From contig NZ_LPZN01000017.1 of assembly GCF_001646655.1 (NCBI RefSeq), positions 62,001 through 126,000 on the forward strand: DNA of 64,000 nt, in the 5' to 3' direction. The position numbers and the translations under genes are program-made. A model generated the notes under the pieces. The model was not told the DNA's origin, did no database searches, and saw only the letters and a list, made by a program, of their open reading frames with translations. Origin of the DNA: Rhodococcus gordoniae. Lineage in GTDB: Bacteria > Actinomycetota > Actinomycetes > Mycobacteriales > Mycobacteriaceae. Position 1 is the first letter of the stretch, and each line of letters starts with the position of its first letter. This document shows, one piece after another, positions 49,804 through 58,203 of this stretch.

Positions 49804-49834
49804 ATGACGAAACCCCCTTGCGGGGGCTCGTCAT
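49804..49834. promoter_or_regulatory. Long stem-loop upstream of the Rep-like gene
   Basis: ATGACGA and CCCCC pair with GGGGG and TCGTCAT around a TTGC loop, broken only by an AA/C bulge. It lies 170-200 bases before the Rep-like start. It may end upstream transcription or form part of a countertranscript RNA or origin structure. Confidence 0.55.
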
Positions 49835-49871
49835 TCGGTCGAACTTTGCCGAGATCGATCGGTACTCAGAA

Positions 49872-49909
49872 CACCTAACGGCGTTAGTTTTCACCTTCGC
49901 CGCTAGGTG
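49872..49909. promoter_or_regulatory. Second stem-loop plus nested palindrome in the Rep leader
   Basis: CACCTAACGGCG pairs with CGCCGCTAGGTG with one mismatch across a 14-base loop. Nested inside the left arm is the perfect palindrome CTAACG-G-CGTTAG (49875-49887). The alternative pairings could switch, as in attenuator-type control of plasmid copy number. Confidence 0.5.
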
Positions 49910-50003
49910 CCCTTATGGATCCGAAGTTGCCGCTTCGTCTCCGTCATGCGCTCTGACCAGGGATTTCCTTGCCGAGATCCCCAGCTCCCCGAAGGGACTT
50001 ACC

Positions 50004-51302
50004 ATGCCTGGTACGTCTCAGGGTACCCCATGCCCTGAACAGCAAACAACCTTTTCGACGACTTCCGGTGAGGAACCTCGTCGTCCCAAAGAAATATCGA
50101 TTGCTTCCCCCCGCTTCGATGCCGAAGATATCGAATTCTCTGCCGCGATATCCCGCGCTGAAGAGAATATCCAGCGCGTCGAGAAAATGAATCAGGAAAG
50201 CGACCAACGTGGCCACACATGGTCCATTCCCGTGCCACCGTCGATGCAGTCCAAAACCCCCATTTGGTCGGGACGTATGCAATGGCAACGGCAGGTCCGC
50301 GAATTGCTCAACGAAGAGAAAGGCAGAAATGTCTGCCGACGCCATCACGCCGATCCCGAGCGGGTCTTTGCCGTCGCGGTAACGATGGCGTCCTTTGCGG
50401 ACCTTCGCACGGGCCGCCGCGTGACGGCCTCCCGCGACGTGCTTGCAGACCGCGCGGGCGTGTCCGTTACTGTCCTCAAACGTGCTCGACGAGTCCTGTC
50501 CGACCTCGGCCTGGCCCGAGAGATGATCCGAGGACGATTTCTCCGCACGCTCGAGCAGTGGGCCGCTGAGGCTCACCACGGTCGTAGACAAGTCAAGGGC
50601 ACCAGCGTCTGGTCGCTCATCTCCCCCAGGGCGGCCGTTCGGAGCCCCTGTGATGCCGGCCGGCCGGAGTCTTCGGCACGCTCCTGTCGCGCAGCGCTCT
50701 CCAGCACCGACGCACCGTCACCGCCCCGTTATCCCCAGACAAGCGATGGTGGCCCCCAATCTGTTGCTCTTTCTTTTGGTTCTTGTACTTCTGTTAAGAA
50801 GTACAAGACAACGCGCGCGAGCGCGCGCAGGAACAGAAATTCTCCGAAGGGACGGTCGCAGCCGCGCCCGATCGGCCTTCAGAAGGCCGCTGCAGCGCTA
50901 GTGGCCGCAACCCCTTGCCTGGAGGCAGCGGGGCATATCGGATCCGTCTGCGACGCACTCAGGGACCATTACGTCGATACAGAGCGGTGGAGTGGCCGCG
51001 ATATTGCGACTGCGCTCAACGAGGACACTCGACGACGTGGATGGATCTGGCCGTCTCGAGGTTCCTTGAAGCATCCGGTTCGATACCTCCGCTGGCGACT
51101 TGCCGCTATCGACTGGTCGCTCCCCTCCCCCACCGAACGTGCGGAGGCCGCGAAACATCTCCGCGATGCCGAACGCCGCGCAACTGCCCGTGTGCTCGCT
51201 CACCGAAATGCCCAGACCGCTTCCGCGGGGACACGGCAGAGCGCCATGACACAAATTCGTGAGCTGCTGCAGGGGAAACGGTCGAAGGTCTCCGGATCGT
51301 AG
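50004..51302 (+). CDS. Rep-like plasmid protein with winged-helix domain
   Basis: About 432 residues. The N-terminus (FDAEDIEFSAAISRAEENIQ) is helical. A winged-helix region follows, FAVAVTMASFADLRTGRRVT and ASRDVLADRAGVSVTVLKRA. The C-terminal domain (HIGSVCDALRDHYVDTERW, GWIWPSRGSLKHPVRYLRW) resembles actinobacterial plasmid proteins near replication genes. The middle third is Ser/Arg-rich and coincides with DNA hairpins at 50781-50826. ATG 50004 has GAAGGGA upstream. Its place beside the palindrome array and parAB makes replication initiation the best guess, but no catalytic Rep motif is seen. Confidence 0.55.
   Translation: MPGTSQGTPCPEQQTTFSTTSGEEPRRPKEISIASPRFDAEDIEFSAAISRAEENIQRVEKMNQESDQRGHTWSIPVPPSMQSKTPIWSGRMQWQRQVRELLNEEKGRNVCRRHHADPERVFAVAVTMASFADLRTGRRVTASRDVLADRAGVSVTVLKRARRVLSDLGLAREMIRGRFLRTLEQWAAEAHHGRRQVKGTSVWSLISPRAAVRSPCDAGRPESSARSCRAALSSTDAPSPPRYPQTSDGGPQSVALSFGSCTSVKKYKTTRASARRNRNSPKGRSQPRPIGLQKAAAALVAATPCLEAAGHIGSVCDALRDHYVDTERWSGRDIATALNEDTRRRGWIWPSRGSLKHPVRYLRWRLAAIDWSLPSPTERAEAAKHLRDAERRATARVLAHRNAQTASAGTRQSAMTQIRELLQGKRSKVSGS
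50781..50826. repeat. Hairpin and alternating GC tract inside the Rep-like gene
   Basis: TCTTGTACTTC, loop TGTTAA, GAAGTACAAGA is a perfect 11-base inverted repeat (50781-50808). Directly after it comes an alternating GCGCGC-GA-GCGCGC tract (50813-50826). The hairpin is AT-rich and interrupts otherwise GC-rich coding DNA. It may mark an internal origin or a hinge between two fused reading frames. Confidence 0.6.
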
Positions 51303-51479
51303 TCGGCCTCACAAAGTCATATGGTGACACGGCCAGCAGAATCGGGAGTCGGTAGGCGCTCGCGTCACGCAGCGCAGGCTGTGTCCACAGAGACGGTTTA
51401 CCGCGGTAAACCACATGAACTACAGGACCCTCAACATTGCCCTACTGCGGCACCGAATCTCGCCACATCGTCTATCGCT

Positions 51480-51606
51480 GGTTTACCGCGGTAAACCGCG
51501 ACACGATGGAGTTGCTCGAGCCGCCGGTCGCTGCACGGAGTGGCCCTGTCGATAAGAAGCACCGGTCTCGGGCTTCCCCGCGACCGCTGGTTTACCGCGG
51601 TAAACC
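51480..51606 (+). repeat. 127-base direct repeat, copy 1
   Basis: Contains array palindromes 2 and 3 and the DNA between them. It is repeated at 51720-51846 with one base difference (T at 51578, C at 51818). The offset is exactly 240 bases. Confidence 0.95.
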
Positions 51607-51719
51607 AGCGTAGGACAGTGTCCACTGGTCCGCTTCGGCCACTGAGCCGCGAACAATCGAAACCCACGCACCGTAGGTCGGCCCTCGGCCGAGGCTCCCC
51701 CGGCCTGCGCGTATCCATC

Positions 51720-51846
51720 GGTTTACCGCGGTAAACCGCGACACGATGGAGTTGCTCGAGCCGCCGGTCGCTGCACGGAGTGGCCCTGTCGATAAGAAGC
51801 ACCGGTCCCGGGCTTCCCCGCGACCGCTGGTTTACCGCGGTAAACC
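51720..51846 (+). repeat. 127-base direct repeat, copy 2
   Basis: Contains array palindromes 4 and 5. Near identity with 51480-51606 indicates a recent duplication within the array, bounded precisely by the palindromes. Confidence 0.95.
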
Positions 51847-52205
51847 GATCAATCCAGTCAGGGATCCCACCGTCTCAGCAACCGGAGTACACCTCGACGG
51901 GACGGTCCGAGAAGGTTGGATCGGCGCCTCATCCTGTCGTGCACCGGCTGCGGTTTACCGCGGTAAACCGCGCGTCGGACCCCGGTCGGGGGTCTCACTC
52001 GAACTGAACATGAGAACACTCCGTTCGGACACGCATTCGCTCCAGCGAAAGACTGTCCTCGCAAAGAGAGGGCATCGTGGGCGGAGATACTGCACTCAGT
52101 GGCCGGGAAGAGCGTTGAGGCACAGACACACGCCGGGGGCTGCGTATCGAGCACGTGGTGGGTTCGGAGTCGTCCATGAACGGTTGTGTCTATAGAGCGT
52201 TCTGC

Positions 52206-52239
52206 CCGTCGACGGTTTACCGCGGTAAACCGTCGACGG
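52206..52239. repeat. Array copy 7 extended to a 34-base perfect palindrome
   Basis: The core is flanked by CCGTCGAC on the left and GTCGACGG on the right, so the whole 34 bases are symmetric without mismatch. Confidence 0.95.
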
Positions 52240-52285
52240 ATCCTTCTCGTTATTGCCGGCGTATGGTCGGGGGCGGAGGGGTTCT

Positions 52286-52347
52286 CAGCAGGCGCAGACG
52301 GTGGCTCGGTTTACCGCGGTAAACCGCGCCACCGTCTGCGCCTGCTG
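52286..52347. repeat. Array copy 8 inside a 62-base inverted repeat
   Basis: Twenty-base arms (52286-52305, 52328-52347) are perfect reverse complements. The core lies in the middle, offset by only two unpaired bases per side. The arm sequence is unrelated to those of the other extended copies. Confidence 0.95.
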
Positions 52348-52713
52348 GACTCGAACGGGCGACATTCCGCGGGATCCGCAGGTCGAATCGTGGGCAGGGC
52401 GGTACATGCGCCTATACCAAAGACGCGATTCGTTCGATCCTGGTTTACCGCGGTAAACCGCGGCATCTGTTGTACAGATCCGCGTAATAGGGGAGCGGAC
52501 ACGGCATCCTCGCGTCGGTGCTGGCCACGCCGATGACCAGACGGCCCCGCAGCAGTGGTCCGACAGCCCCGGGTGTCGATCGCGCCCAGATGGAAAGGGA
52601 GTGGGTTGCTATGAGGCGACCCCTCGATCCTCCGGTGCTCGGTGACGTCGACGCTCCGGTAACTCGTGTGTAAGTACAACAAGAATCCGTCGCTCTGCTC
52701 GAGCAACCTCGCG

Positions 52714-52775
52714 ACATCCTGCCGTTCTGAGGCCCGGTTTACCGCGGTAAACAGTGCCTCAGAACGGCAGGATGT
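52714..52775. repeat. Array copy 10 inside a 62-base inverted repeat
   Basis: Arms 52714-52733 and 52756-52775 match perfectly over 20 bases. They flank the array copy whose last base is altered. Again the arm sequence is unique to this copy. Confidence 0.95.
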
Positions 52776-53176
52776 GTAAACGGTAAGAGGGAGGTGAAGC
52801 GTCACGCAACGCGCGAGAGCCCCGCCGCCCGGACTGGGGCTCGCAAGGATGTACTCGCCGGTGGATCCGGAAGTTCGGTCGCGTAGGGGAGGGGAGGGGC
52901 AGCCTCCGAAGTGCGGGAGCCAACGACCAGGGGAGAGAGGGATGCGGAGTGACCGCATCGAATCGCCCGTCCTTCGCTCGGTCGAATCGCAGTAGGTCTG
53001 CCGAAACCCGTCACGATACCGAAATGGTGGGCGATCGTGCGCGATGCGATGTCGCAGCAGGGGCGCGCCCCTGCAGAAGTACGCGTCGTATAACTTGGAG
53101 ACGAATGTCGTGATCGAGCAAGACTCGGACGTGGGGTGGATCGGTGCGCGACGCGAACTCGGACGGGTATCCGATT

Positions 53177-53202
53177 CGGTGGTTTACCGCGGTAAACCAC
53201 CG
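53177..53202. repeat. Array copy 11 extended to a 26-base palindrome
   Basis: CGGT before and ACCG after the core extend the symmetry to 26 bases. It is the last copy, 290 bases before the small HTH gene. Confidence 0.9.
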
Positions 53203-53920: not shown

Positions 53921-54631
53921 ATGGCTGTTCATGTCATGCTCAACCAAAAGGGTGGCGTCGGAAAATCCACCCTTACAATGAATCTCGCCGCAGTCAAAGC
54001 GGACGTTCTCACCGCCGGCGACGATGACGACGTCCAGTCCCCGGTAGCAGCGATCTCGGTGGACCCCCAGGGATCCGCCGTCTGGTGGGCCTCCCGCGTC
54101 CAGGAATTGCCGTTCCTGATCGACCAGGTTCACGACAATCTCGACGTGCTCCGCAATCTCGACAAACTTCCCGGTATCAAGCACGTCTATGTCGATACCC
54201 CGGGCTGGATCGATCTGTCCGGCGCCGACGACGGCACCGATGTGCTCGGGACCGGCAGCTCCGCCGACGCCCTACGCGCCGTCCTCGAAGTCGCCGATCT
54301 GGTCATCGTTCCCATCGAGCCCGAACCGCTCTGCTTCGACCCCACGGCTCGGACCATCAAGCAGGTCATCGAACCCCTCGGTAAGAAATTCATTGTCGTT
54401 GTGAACAACTGGGACCCCCGGGACGGCAAGGTCGACCTCGAACAGACACGAGAATTCGTCCAGGCCAACGGGTGGCCACTTGCGCGAACCGTCGTGCGGC
54501 ACTACAAGGTTCACACTCGAGCCGCCGCGGAGGGCAGGGTCGTCACCGAGTACGAAGCCAACCGCGTCTCTCTGCAGGCCCGGGAGGATTTCTACAAGCT
54601 CAGTCTCGAGCTCGCGGACGGTGGTCGCTGA
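53921..54631 (+). CDS. parA: ParA-family partition ATPase
   Basis: A 236-residue deviant Walker-type ATPase that positions plasmid copies. It has the P-loop NQKGGVGKSTLTMNLA, the Walker A'-like ISVDPQGSAVWWASR, and the Walker B-like HVYVDTPGWIDLS. There is no N-terminal DNA-binding extension, so it is the short (type Ib-like) form that usually leaves repression to a partner. ATG 53921 has GGAGGT at good spacing. The stop overlaps the parB ATG (TGATG). Confidence 0.93.
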   Translation: MAVHVMLNQKGGVGKSTLTMNLAAVKADVLTAGDDDDVQSPVAAISVDPQGSAVWWASRVQELPFLIDQVHDNLDVLRNLDKLPGIKHVYVDTPGWIDLSGADDGTDVLGTGSSADALRAVLEVADLVIVPIEPEPLCFDPTARTIKQVIEPLGKKFIVVVNNWDPRDGKVDLEQTREFVQANGWPLARTVVRHYKVHTRAAAEGRVVTEYEANRVSLQAREDFYKLSLELADGGR

Positions 54632-55539
54632 TGGCGCCCAAGGGTGGGCGCGCAAACTTCGCCTCTTTGGTCGGAGCAGTAGGCGACAACTCTCCGGTAG
54701 ACCGTAAGCGCACTCCCACACCGTACAAGGTTGTTGCCCGGCCCGTCGAAGGTCAACTGCTCGCTGATGTTCCCGTCGGCCGGCTCGTTGCCAACCCCAG
54801 AAACCCACGCGACGAACTCGGGGACCTGTCCGACCTGGCTACGATCGTCGACCGGCAACTGCAACCGGGAACCGTCGTCAGCCGCGCAGCCTGGCTGAAA
54901 CTGTGGCCCGAAGACGAAGACGATATCGGCACTGCCGAGTACATCGTCGTCAACGGCAACCGTCGTCTCGCTGCCGCCCAGAAGTACGGGCGCCCCGGAC
55001 TCGATGTCGTCCTGCGCGACAGCATCGCCACCGATAGAGGAGAGATTCTCTGGGCTGCAACAAGTGAGAACATCGACCGCCGTGACTTCGACGTCCTCGA
55101 AGAAGCCAAGGCCGTCGAGCTGATGGTCTCCGAGTTCGGCAGCGCCGACGCAGCAGCGAAGAAACTCGGCCGCTCCAAAGGCTGGGTGTCCCAGCGCCGC
55201 GCCCTGCTCAAACTCGCACCCGAACTTCAAGCAGCCCTGCGCGCAGGCGATCTCGCCGTTCGTCAAGCCCGGTCTCTGGCCCGAGTTCCGCTCGAGGAAC
55301 AGGTCGCGGCATGGCAAGCGGCACAAAATTCTGAGCCGGAACCCGAAGTCGAGCCTGAGGCTTCGGATTCGGAGGAGCCACAGCCGAAAGAGCCTGCGAG
55401 CAAGCTCGAGCCGGTGGACAAGGTGGCTCAGGCACTCAAACGACTCGGCGCAGATCCGGATGTGCTTGCCGCGGCAGTGCGTAAGCACTTCACCGATGAC
55501 GAGCGCCGCAAGCTCATCGATGCGCTCGAGCTCCGGTAG
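54631..55539 (+). CDS. parB: ParB-family centromere-binding protein
   Basis: A 302-residue ParB. The N-terminal CTP-binding fold shows VANPRNPRDELGDLSDLA, VVNGNRRLAAAQKYG (GxRR box) and TSENIDRRDFDVLEEAKAV (ENxxR box). The central HTH is GSADAAAKKLGRSKGWVSQR. An acidic linker (EPEPEVEPEASDSEEPQP) leads to a C-terminal helical dimerisation segment. It would load onto a parS-like site and clamp DNA; the palindrome array upstream of parA is the obvious target. ATG 54631 overlaps the parA stop. Confidence 0.92.
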   Translation: MAPKGGRANFASLVGAVGDNSPVDRKRTPTPYKVVARPVEGQLLADVPVGRLVANPRNPRDELGDLSDLATIVDRQLQPGTVVSRAAWLKLWPEDEDDIGTAEYIVVNGNRRLAAAQKYGRPGLDVVLRDSIATDRGEILWAATSENIDRRDFDVLEEAKAVELMVSEFGSADAAAKKLGRSKGWVSQRRALLKLAPELQAALRAGDLAVRQARSLARVPLEEQVAAWQAAQNSEPEPEVEPEASDSEEPQPKEPASKLEPVDKVAQALKRLGADPDVLAAAVRKHFTDDERRKLIDALELR

Positions 55540-55593: not shown

Positions 55594-57408
55594 ATGAGCG
55601 GAATCGACGACCAGATCGCCCTTTTCGATCTCGATCCCGAATCCGAAGAGCCGACGGTCGAGGCACCTGTCTCCGAAGAACCGACGTCCGACACGCCCGA
55701 TACGCCGCCGGAAGATCTGTCGGCCACCGACGCTGACACCGCCGCATCCGACGAGGATGTTGCCGCCGGCACCGACCAGGTGCCGGATCTTCCGGCCGAG
55801 TCTCGACCATGGGAGTCGCTACCTGTCACCGAGGATGCGGACGGTCACGCCATCATCGTCACCGCCGAAGCCACCTACACACCGTCGGGTGCCCGTCTGA
55901 CCGGACCGGTCGACTCGATCGAGAAGCTGGACAAGCTGCTGCACTGGGCAGCATTGACTCCGCACGGACTCACTGCACAGGTGTGGTTCGTCGGGATCGA
56001 CTCGTGCGCCCAGCTCGGTTGGACGATCGACCCCGGCAGTGAAGACGACGTCGACGACCTCGAACAACTCCGCCAACGCGCTGCGACCGAGCTGACCCAC
56101 GCTATCGCTGCCACTCTGCCGCCTCTGATCGCTGCAGGTTGGGAACTGCGCGGCGATCCCGGCTACGTCATCCATCTCCTCCGCAAGGTCGGTAAAGCCA
56201 CTCAGATGGTCGATCTCGTCCTCGAGCCCTACGTGTGGACCTACTGGAACAAGGACTTCGGCTGGGGTAACCGCGTCGGAGACATGGGCATCCTAGGCAA
56301 CCCCGCTGCCGGTACCTACCTGCCCGACGACGACCGTCCCGCCGCCCGCGAACTCGGCCGCCGCCTGGCCTGGTCCGTCAAGCACCTCGACACCCTGCCG
56401 GGCCCGACCCCCGCCCGCACCGGTGCCGCCGTACTGGACAAGATCCGTCGCGAACGCCTCCGCACCGGCAAAGGCATCGTCGTCACGGCCGGCGGGCCCC
56501 TCCCACCGATCGCCGACGCCCCACGCGGGGACCTCGAACCGGCCGCCGGCTGGTCCCGTATCCCCGACGCCGACGACCTCGATGGTGCCTCCGCGCTGGT
56601 CACCATCGACCAGCGCGCCGCGTATCTGGCTTCGGCGGGCATGCTGTCGTTCGGCTACGGCCGGATCCGCAATCTCGTCGGTGACGATGCCGCAGCCGCC
56701 GCAGCAGTCGACAAGCCGGCTTTCGGCCTCTGGCGCGTGACTCTGCCCGCCGCAGCGCAATTCGGTCTACCGGAGAAGCTGCCGCTACCGCATCCGGCGA
56801 TGCTCGACGACCGGCCGGTACAGACATGGATCACTACCGTCAGTCTCGACGGACTGTGCGCGCCCATCGCCGACGGGGGAATGGGGCTCGATGCCGACGA
56901 CCTCGACGTCACCGAGGCCTGGGTCTACGAGGAACAAGGTCGCGCCCTGGACAAGTGGGCGAAAGTGTTGCGCGAGGCCCGCACGGTCGCCGTCGGCACC
57001 GGCGACGTTGCCATGAAACGTTTTCTCGGCGCCTGCTACAAGGGCTATGTCGGTCGGATGGTCAATCCGGACATGTGGACCGCGACTCGCATGCACCACC
57101 ACCACCAGCCGTTGTGGCGAGCGGCGATCATGGCGCACTGCCGCTGGCGTGGCCGTCGCGTCGCGATGCGCATCGCCCGTGAGACCGGGCGCTGGCCGAT
57201 CCGCACCATGACCGACTCCTGGGTGTATCTGGTGGGGGAGGGGCAGACCCTTGCCGACGACAGCGACGCGCTGGGCAAGATGACCCTGGAAAAGCACATC
57301 GATCTCACCGATGAGATGCTGCTGGCCTTCGCAGGAGCCGAGACCACCCACGAGGTTCGTCTGGCGATCGCCGCTGCCTACGGCACCGACACCGACAAGG
57401 GGGAGTAG
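55594..57408 (+). CDS. 604-residue plasmid protein with family-B DNA polymerase palm motifs
   Basis: The first 70 residues are acidic and disordered. Three motifs then follow in order. TIDQRAAYLAS (Asp339, Tyr344) fits polymerase motif A, D-x4-Y. MKRFLGACYKGYVGRM (Lys475, Tyr482) fits motif B, K-x6-Y. TMTDSWVYLVG (Asp541) fits motif C, whose usual DTDS has lost its first Asp. From memory, phi29 polymerase has Asp249, Lys383 and Asp458, a closely similar spacing. I see no 3'-5' exonuclease motif. The gene lies 54 bases after parB and abuts a Tpg-like gene. An alternative is a telomere-associated (Tap-like) DNA-binding protein. Polymerase activity is inferred. Confidence 0.6.
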   Translation: MSGIDDQIALFDLDPESEEPTVEAPVSEEPTSDTPDTPPEDLSATDADTAASDEDVAAGTDQVPDLPAESRPWESLPVTEDADGHAIIVTAEATYTPSGARLTGPVDSIEKLDKLLHWAALTPHGLTAQVWFVGIDSCAQLGWTIDPGSEDDVDDLEQLRQRAATELTHAIAATLPPLIAAGWELRGDPGYVIHLLRKVGKATQMVDLVLEPYVWTYWNKDFGWGNRVGDMGILGNPAAGTYLPDDDRPAARELGRRLAWSVKHLDTLPGPTPARTGAAVLDKIRRERLRTGKGIVVTAGGPLPPIADAPRGDLEPAAGWSRIPDADDLDGASALVTIDQRAAYLASAGMLSFGYGRIRNLVGDDAAAAAAVDKPAFGLWRVTLPAAAQFGLPEKLPLPHPAMLDDRPVQTWITTVSLDGLCAPIADGGMGLDADDLDVTEAWVYEEQGRALDKWAKVLREARTVAVGTGDVAMKRFLGACYKGYVGRMVNPDMWTATRMHHHHQPLWRAAIMAHCRWRGRRVAMRIARETGRWPIRTMTDSWVYLVGEGQTLADDSDALGKMTLEKHIDLTDEMLLAFAGAETTHEVRLAIAAAYGTDTDKGE

Positions 57409-58203
57409 ATGGCGCTGCACCTCCCGAAACCCCGGTCGAAAGCGGTGCCGCAGAAAACTGTCGGTCTCGACGGCATGAAGGTCACCGTCGCCGCCGCGGC
57501 AGCCGCCGGTGTCGCCAAGGCACAGGAAACCAGCACAGGCCTGGCCGGCTTGACCTCGCGAGTCTCGGTCAGACAGATCCGCACCGAGATCGGCAACGAG
57601 GGACTGCGGCAGGCATCCATCGACGCCGGTCGCACTCCACCATCGGACCGAACGCTGCGCCGTTGGGTTCAGCAAGGCCGCATCCCCCATGCCGAGGTGG
57701 CCGAGTTGGCCCAGCGTCGCGCTGCCATCGCACGGCTCGGTGGAGTGAACAAGGTAGCGAGGAAGATCGGCCGCAGCCCCTCCTCGGTGCGTAAGTACAT
57801 CTCCGGCAAGACCAACGAACTGCGCAACGACGCACGGTCGAAACTTAAGGACGTCAAGGCCAAGGACGTCATGGGTAAGGCCGGGGTCTTCAACCCCGAC
57901 GGCACACCGAAGATTGCCACCATTCGCGTCACCGGCCGTGTCCATGTACGCAACGGTGATGAGGCCGGATACGACTACCGCACCCGCACACTGGACTTCG
58001 GCAACTCGGACGTCCCGTTCAGCGCCGTCGAATCGGAAGCGTTGGCGGCGGCGCTTGCCAACGACGACCAAGCCCGAGTCGTCGCCATCCTCGAACGCCA
58101 CGCGACGATCGACTATCCCGAGAACAAAGGGTTCGACGTCTACAGTGACCAGTTCGGTTTCCACTTCGACGCAATCGACAGCATCGACGTCACCTGGCAC
58201 TGA
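57409..58203 (+). CDS. HTH protein resembling actinobacterial telomere terminal proteins (Tpg-like)
   Basis: 264 residues. A central HTH reads LGGVNKVARKIGRSPSSVRK and is followed by a basic linker. The C-terminal alpha/beta region (ATIRVTGRVHVRNGDEAGYD, ending IDSIDVTWH) parallels the thumb-like half of Streptomyces Tpg in layout: HTH, basic stretch, then beta strands and a closing D/E-x-I-x-x-I-D segment. It is longer than Tpg (about 185 residues). ATG 57409 directly follows the stop of the polymerase-like gene, so the two are co-expressed. A plain transcriptional regulator cannot be excluded. Confidence 0.55.
   Translation: MALHLPKPRSKAVPQKTVGLDGMKVTVAAAAAAGVAKAQETSTGLAGLTSRVSVRQIRTEIGNEGLRQASIDAGRTPPSDRTLRRWVQQGRIPHAEVAELAQRRAAIARLGGVNKVARKIGRSPSSVRKYISGKTNELRNDARSKLKDVKAKDVMGKAGVFNPDGTPKIATIRVTGRVHVRNGDEAGYDYRTRTLDFGNSDVPFSAVESEALAAALANDDQARVVAILERHATIDYPENKGFDVYSDQFGFHFDAIDSIDVTWH

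Follow-up and report, generated by a model that had tools for sequence, protein, structure and literature searches.

The locus analyzed here raises the question of whether two adjoining plasmid genes encode a polymerase and the protein that primes it, and which DNA they would copy. We studied a stretch of 64,000 nucleotides of Rhodococcus gordoniae DNA (contig NZ_LPZN01000017.1, positions 62,001 to 126,000; hereafter the window), in which the gene for the protein P0001 is followed directly by that for P0002. The original prediction described P0001 as a polymerase-like protein with motifs of the DNA polymerase family B and P0002 as similar to Tpg, the terminal protein of Streptomyces, and took the pair as a new replication or telomere system. 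The results make it very probable that P0001 is a compact protein of the type of the actinobacterial telomere-associated protein Tap and that, together with the terminal protein P0002, it fills in one class of telomere, termed class X below, at the ends of a linear plasmid. The features of the pair are as follows.

55594..57408, + strand: P0001, compact Tap-type telomere-associated protein (putative protein-primed DNA polymerase), 604 aa; open reading frame (ORF), Tap homology.
56608..56610, + strand: codon of D339, invariant Asp in the motif-A-like VTIDQRAAYL; 31/31 and 41/41 alignment rows.
57214..57216, + strand: codon of D541, invariant Asp in the motif-C-like MTDSWVY; 31/31 and 41/41 alignment rows.
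57409..58203, + strand: P0002, terminal-protein homologue with a helix-turn-helix (HTH) region, 264 aa; ORF, profile comparison.

The gene pair is genuine, and its two members form a unit. Both ORFs have exactly the predicted limits, and the start codon of P0002 comes immediately after the stop codon of P0001. A scan of genome contigs identified 34 P0001-type loci in Rhodococcus, Prescottella, Gordonia, and mycobacterial genomes, with the gene intact in 31, and every one of these 31 loci had an ORF of 230-290 aa on the same strand, at most 4 bases downstream of the gene end or overlapping it. In the PLSDB database, P0001 had tblastn matches in 137 records (96 Rhodococcus, 11 Prescottella, 11 Mycobacterium, 7 Mycolicibacterium, 4 Gordonia, and others), including 102 at 60% identity or more; some of the weaker matches are to the larger Tap of the type found on plasmid pAL1. 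P0002 matched 109 records, and a match was present in six genomes from a sample of 394 of the class. The smallest carrier listed is pCLP (22.7 kb) and the largest measures 1.39 Mb; many of the carriers have parAB, and the P0001-type gene usually lies in the plasmid interior beside parAB, as at 248 kb of the 332 kb of pRHL3. Plasmid pRHL1 (NC_008269.1) has P0001-type sequences at 558204-559589, 715727-717493, and 752849-753244, comprising a full-length copy, a second copy (query residues 140-600), and a third fragment.

The relatives of P0001 were found among Tap proteins. The NCBIfam model telomere_Tap (NF047542) aligned residues 317-466 of P0001 with profile positions 394-524 (E 5.9e-5, 22 bits), and the same model columns matched the proteins of pAL1 (E 2.2e-26) and pFiD188 (2.9e-42) and a Streptomyces toprim fusion (9.2e-42). 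We rejected P0001 as an equivalog of the Streptomyces Tap, the curated cut-off of the model being 600 bits. A profile of six P0001-type proteins, searched against 15 sequences, found the C-terminal part of the pAL1 Tap (63.5 bits) and a Curtobacterium relative (75.5 bits). The 31-row profile of the P0001 type matched five Streptomyces Taps (33.3 to 16.2 bits) among 11 ORFs, a comparison that used five of seven Tap loci and plus-strand ORFs only. By hhalign, the P0001 family aligned with the pAL1 type at P 2.4e-30 and with the Streptomyces Tap at P 1.5e-10. No Pfam domain, no HTH by Pfam, and no long zinc-finger N-terminal region like that of the pAL1-type Tap were identified in P0001. It shares with the Tap superfamily in the broad sense a homologous catalytic domain, a terminal-protein-like gene downstream, and an association with linear replicons whose terminal repeats are palindromic.

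The pAL1 Tap (1707 aa) and its Rhodococcus relatives, which are the "telomere-binding protein" of pREL1, pBD2, pRHL2, and pFiD188, have in common with P0001 the C-terminal domain with both invariant Asp residues and, directly downstream, a terminal-protein-like gene. Unlike P0001, they carry about 1200 additional N-terminal residues with a DnaG-type zinc finger. In the 26 records listed of 27 Rhodococcus records, their gene is about 1-11 kb away from one of the ends, whereas the P0001 type is usually interior. The chromosomal Tap of Streptomyces is distantly homologous to P0001 over the catalytic domain and keeps both Asp residues. Judged by sequence comparison, P0001 and P0002 are a divergent, compact lineage of the actinobacterial Tap and terminal-protein telomere machinery and not an unknown system.

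P0002 is, by profile comparison, closer to the terminal protein of pAL1 than to the Streptomyces Tpg, which departs from the likeness originally suggested. The Tpg model (NF047541) had no match to P0002 at E<=1, while hhalign aligned the P0002 family with the pAL1-type small proteins at 98.1%. A profile of the P0002 family matched the gene next to Tap in pAL1 (E 2.7e-6), Curtobacterium (2.5e-10), and Streptomyces plasmids (2.1e-10), and had a match in 11 of 13 records. The pAL1 gene right after Tap is the one that we take to be its terminal protein. Nucleotidylation of the pAL1 terminal protein with dCMP is mentioned in a part of PMC3572947.

Comparable pairs have been described previously. 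According to passages of PMC4513846, purified Streptomyces Tap with Tpg, as well as Tac with Tpc of plasmid SCP1, made terminal-protein-primed DNA without added polymerase, Tap adding up to 13 nt. Tap has been called a "new class of DNA polymerases", and in 2015 the superfamily was described as polymerases that lack any polymerase motif. According to PMC4513846, the SCP1 pair works similarly, as a terminal protein and a partner enzyme of unknown fold, and we liken it to P0001 and P0002 by description only. For Rhodococcus sp. WAY2, a passage of PMC7276702 reports distant tap and tpg homologues on all three linear plasmids, with the right-end pair of pRWAY03 showing 33-37% identity to pAL1, and the P0001 type may already be listed in the supplementary table of that paper. 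PMC11984191 and PMC12915292 also mention genes for telomere-binding and terminal proteins from further plasmids of Rhodococcus. The polymerase-like and terminal-protein-like pair of the original prediction holds in its homology to Tap and to the small protein of pAL1 and in the linear replicon type. The system is not new in every respect, since Tap/Tpg and Tac/Tpc are reported for the same job in Streptomyces (PMC4513846) and distant tap/tpg homologues are reported in WAY2 (PMC7276702).

Rhodococcus linear plasmids have two telomere classes. Class X starts with CCGCGGCGCT and has hairpins with GCTNCGC loops, whereas class Y starts like CCGTCGGGAGGG and has the hairpins CCGGGCTGCGCCCGG and GGCAAGCC. 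The idea of two classes was formed on the WAY2 passage (PMC7276702, in part) and on pRHL2 and pRHL3. Rhodococcus plasmids carry the P0001 type, the pAL1 type, or both: both ends of pRHL3, which carries the P0001 type only, are X, and pRHL2, with both types, has Y at the left, beside the pAL1-type gene, and X at the right. With 220 bases from an X end as query (E 1e-5), 73 records matched, all Rhodococcus or Prescottella; with 240 bases from a Y end, 17 records matched, all Rhodococcus and with one end each. Among the 60 X records listed, the best match was at or very near an end, except in CP103309, where it was inside the record; the pair (a P0001 or P0002 match) was on the record in 50, absent in 3, and not determined in 7. 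All 17 Y records were among the 26 pAL1-type Rhodococcus records listed, and 15 of them were also among the 60 X records listed. Eight pAL1-type records had neither class in these lists, and CP092102 had X only.

Thirteen records were searched whole for both Tap types; eight of these had been picked from the Y or pAL1-type lists, and the figures are plain counts. The records with the P0001 type only had X or X-like ends on both sides (3/3; pVAPN, pRHL3, and pDND3A), those of pDND3A, which has no pAL1-type Tap, lacking the outermost bases. Where both Tap types were present, one end was X and the other Y (6/6; pREL1, pBD2, pRLLBG43, pYLL2, CERE8, and pRHL2, or five without pRHL2). Three records with the pAL1 type only had X and Y ends, and companion plasmids of these strains carry the pair (CP054208; CP096567; CP058639 and CP058641, by P0002 matches), sameness of strain being judged by organism name and neighbouring accession. 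The remaining record, pFiD188, has the pAL1 type only and neither class, and its record ends look incomplete. The ends of pAL1 itself have Y-like hairpins, as judged by eye. Because pair-only records have X at both ends, records with both Tap types have X and Y, and all Y records are of the pAL1 type, the P0001/P0002 pair most likely patches X ends.

The residues quoted in the original prediction are present in P0001: D339 in TIDQRAAYLAS, K475 and Y482 in KRFLGACY, and D541 in MTDSWVY. D339 and D541 are invariant in all 31 rows of the P0001-type alignment (A3) and in all 41 domains of a wider one (31 P0001-type, 5 pAL1-type, and 5 Streptomyces Tap), so these motifs are more than chance. Three broken or partial loci (L035, L036, and L042) and L054, with lengths and scores the same as those of L053, were left out of A3; two fused relatives that lack D339 (L008 and L018) were never part of it. 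The 41-domain alignment has few invariant columns, which include the motif-A Asp (DQRAAYL, DRGGSYL, DVNMAFA) and the motif-C Asp and Tyr (DSWVY, DTVLY, DCVVY). The proposed motif B fared less well: Y482 is Tyr in 35 of the 41 domains, but a conserved lysine at K475 had to be rejected, as this position varies in A3, and the reading of the motif is weaker for it. The invariant Asp pair fits a two-metal polymerase active site.

Comparisons with known polymerases gave no significant match. None of the 31 P0001-type members had a Pfam polymerase match at E<=10, the few matches being to unrelated families; a sequence search of the PDB gave no match, no exonuclease family matched P0001, and scans of viral contigs with the family alignment, the Streptomyces Tap, and the polymerase of locus L134 confirmed no relative. 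In hhalign, a combined profile against 28 phi29-like polymerases brought D339, K475, Y482, and D541 into register with the motif residues of phi29. The score of 18.9 is not significant, being reached by 3 of 60 shuffled queries; all 20 shuffled targets (best 17.7) and the reversed target (17.0) scored only narrowly lower. We take the usual phi29 residue numbering to be 3 higher than that of the record compared. Among four Tap-side profiles, only the combined one gave the full phi29 register, in three of four settings and never in global mode. Against the phi29-like PolB, the pAL1-type profile had only motif A and the Lys in register, and the P0001 and Tap profiles had none. Motif A was in register with the L134 polymerase for the combined and Tap profiles, and with a merged profile for the combined and pAL1-type profiles, with motif C in register for none of the profiles. 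P0001 resembles a phi29-like polymerase with its terminal protein in the order of D339, K475/Y482, and D541, and differs from it in the absence of the first Asp of DTDS and in the variable K475. The missing Asp is no strong argument against activity, because the actinobacterial PolB gene L134:682-2796 (Pfam DNA_pol_B_2; one of 394 genomes) has the single-Asp motif C ATDG. A family-B polymerase fold of P0001 is plausible, with the sequence and profile comparisons not reaching significance. Among the listed titles and abstract openings, covering few subscription papers, we found none that treats Tap or the terminal proteins of linear plasmids in terms of family B or AlphaFold.

The genomic setting is that of a plasmid. 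Partition genes lie directly upstream of the pair, as had been predicted, and the neighbouring features are as follows.

49818..51302, strand not stated: 494-aa ORF beside the palindrome array; ORF scan.
51395..53198, no strand: 11-copy array of the 18-bp palindrome GGTTTACCGCGGTAAACC; 11 matches, 0 expected by chance.
53921..54631, + strand: parA-type partition ATPase; CbiA E 7.9e-9, ParA_partition E 3.5e-22.
54631..55539, + strand: parB-type partition protein; HTH_ParB E 4.1e-11, start from the pDND3A annotation.

The window lies within a contig of 217,644 bases (C34) of a draft genome of 4.82 Mb and most likely belongs to a linear Rhodococcus plasmid. The closest named record is pDND3A of R. 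gordoniae (385,072 bases, linear), which has the same gene order (parA, a gene in the parB position, and then the pair), with P0001 99% identical and both pair genes annotated as "hypothetical protein". The palindrome array, with ten perfect copies and one with a single mismatch, stands between the 494-aa ORF and parA, and pDND3A likewise has 11 matches to the palindrome core. This array is likely a centromere or an internal origin and forms context outside the gene pair. The 494-aa ORF had no Pfam or NCBIfam match and a weak DnaD-like PHROG match (E 0.32), and is a candidate replication initiator.

Relatives of the pair were also found on other replicons. A Gordonia record labelled circular (NZ_CP128198.1) carries the pair and is probably linear, because it has terminal inverted repeats of 378 bp at 92% at the record ends (L135/L136). 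Plasmid pCLP of Mycobacterium celatum contains pieces of both genes in several frames within about 3 kb of its right end (L014:19571-21697), as well as poly-C ends and hairpins; the split frames of the deposited sequence would be sequencing errors or decay. In PMC12803027 (2026), pCLP and M. avium plasmids are called invertron-like, and the terminal proteins of the M. avium plasmids are left unknown. Two fused proteins (L018:3977-7156 of M. adipatum and L008:1276-4518 of genome G383) consist of a P0001-type first copy and a pAL1-type second copy. The first copies have lost D339 and D541 at the aligned positions, that of M. adipatum having an Asp one residue later in motif C, and the second copies keep the motif-A Asp, that of M. 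adipatum having both.

Several observations weigh against the assignment of the pair to X ends of linear plasmids. At least 29 of 92 pair-carrying records had no X match at E 1e-5 (a bound derived from the 92 carriers, the 50 among the 60 X records listed, and 13 X records beyond these), although their ends may be incomplete or diverged. The three plasmids with X and Y ends and the pAL1 type only have no pair in cis, and the linkage of pair and telomere could partly reflect shared plasmid descent. The ends of the contig that contains the window are not telomeres, and the sole X trace in its genome is a piece of the region 500-600 bases inside an X-type end, on another contig. The Tap model had no match at E<=0.1 in the Gordonia and M. 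intracellulare relatives and, in whole-genome searches at E<=1, also matched 12 of 14 control genomes, none above its cut-off. The P0002-family profile had no match in the records of M. adipatum and Pseudonocardia. The records of the M. adipatum and M. intracellulare relatives are labelled circular, with no terminal repeats found, nor were such repeats found in a linear Nocardia record.

The proposed mechanism builds on the Tap and terminal-protein homology of the two proteins, the tight coupling of their genes, the invariant Asp pair, and the co-occurrence with a telomere class. The plasmid would replicate from an internal origin, after which 3' overhangs would have to be filled in. P0001 would recognize the folded 3' overhang of class-X telomeres, with their GCTNCGC-loop hairpins, and hold P0002. 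A hydroxyl residue of P0002 would then receive the first deoxynucleotide from P0001, which would go on to extend a short primer by means of a two-metal active site with D339 and D541 among its residues. The rest of the fill-in would fall to a polymerase of the host, and P0002 would stay on the 5' end. Telomere binding, nucleotidylation, covalent capping, and the polymerase fold are thus the predicted parts.

Because the pair adjoins parAB, usually in the plasmid interior, P0001 might instead serve an internal origin as its Rep protein, with P0002 acting in partition or control and an indirect link to telomeres. The array of 11 palindromes upstream and a sub-threshold match of P0002 to the HTH-type family carph-isopro (33.2 bits, cut-off 38) agree with such roles. 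However, both proteins are homologous to a Tap and terminal-protein pair, presence of the pair tracks the X class, pFiD188 and three X and Y records have no pair in cis, and a separate 494-aa ORF stands beside the palindromes; we consider a Rep function unlikely. Another way to read the same homology is that P0001 and P0002 are a structural Tap and terminal-protein pair with an inactive polymerase, the nucleotidylation being left to a host enzyme. The lack of the classical first Asp of DTDS and of any polymerase match in Pfam or the PDB would be expected of such a protein, but both Asp residues are kept in 41 of 41 domains, and the two fused proteins, which lost them at the aligned positions of the first copy, each have a second copy with the motif-A Asp. 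The L134 PolB also has a single-Asp motif C, and the Streptomyces Tap nucleotidylates Tpg without added polymerase, according to passages of PMC4513846. An inactive P0001 therefore seems rather unlikely.

The register of D339, K475, Y482, and D541 in the combined-profile alignment could also point to a phi29-like protein-primed replicon that copies the whole plasmid from its ends. Shuffled queries scored as high in 3 of 60 cases, though, the listed carriers extend from 22.7 kb to 1.39 Mb and many have parAB, and neither a confirmed viral relative in the contig scan nor an exonuclease family match was obtained, which leaves this origin very improbable. Filling in of class-X ends by a compact Tap and its terminal protein is the reading that we prefer. 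A wider interpretation is put forward tentatively: the Tap superfamily might consist of palm polymerases that descend from the protein-primed family B, have diverged highly, lack an exonuclease, and use D339/D541-type catalytic Asp residues; Rhodococcus plasmids with two kinds of ends might run two machines, the cognate pair setting the identity of each end, with service in trans possible; and the same lineage might supply the terminal protein of linear plasmids in mycobacteria, pCLP among them.

The new element is a compact type of Tap and terminal protein tied to its own telomere class, most likely the second telomere-copying system of Rhodococcus plasmids. This proposes a function for "hypothetical protein" genes on about 100 Rhodococcus and Prescottella plasmid records and provides a natural case of one DNA molecule seemingly with two different telomere machineries. 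D339 and D541 make the active site of the Tap polymerases open to simple mutation tests. In addition, a candidate terminal protein emerges for pCLP, a linear plasmid of mycobacteria, and the pair may likewise account for how the ends of some mycobacterial linear plasmids are copied.

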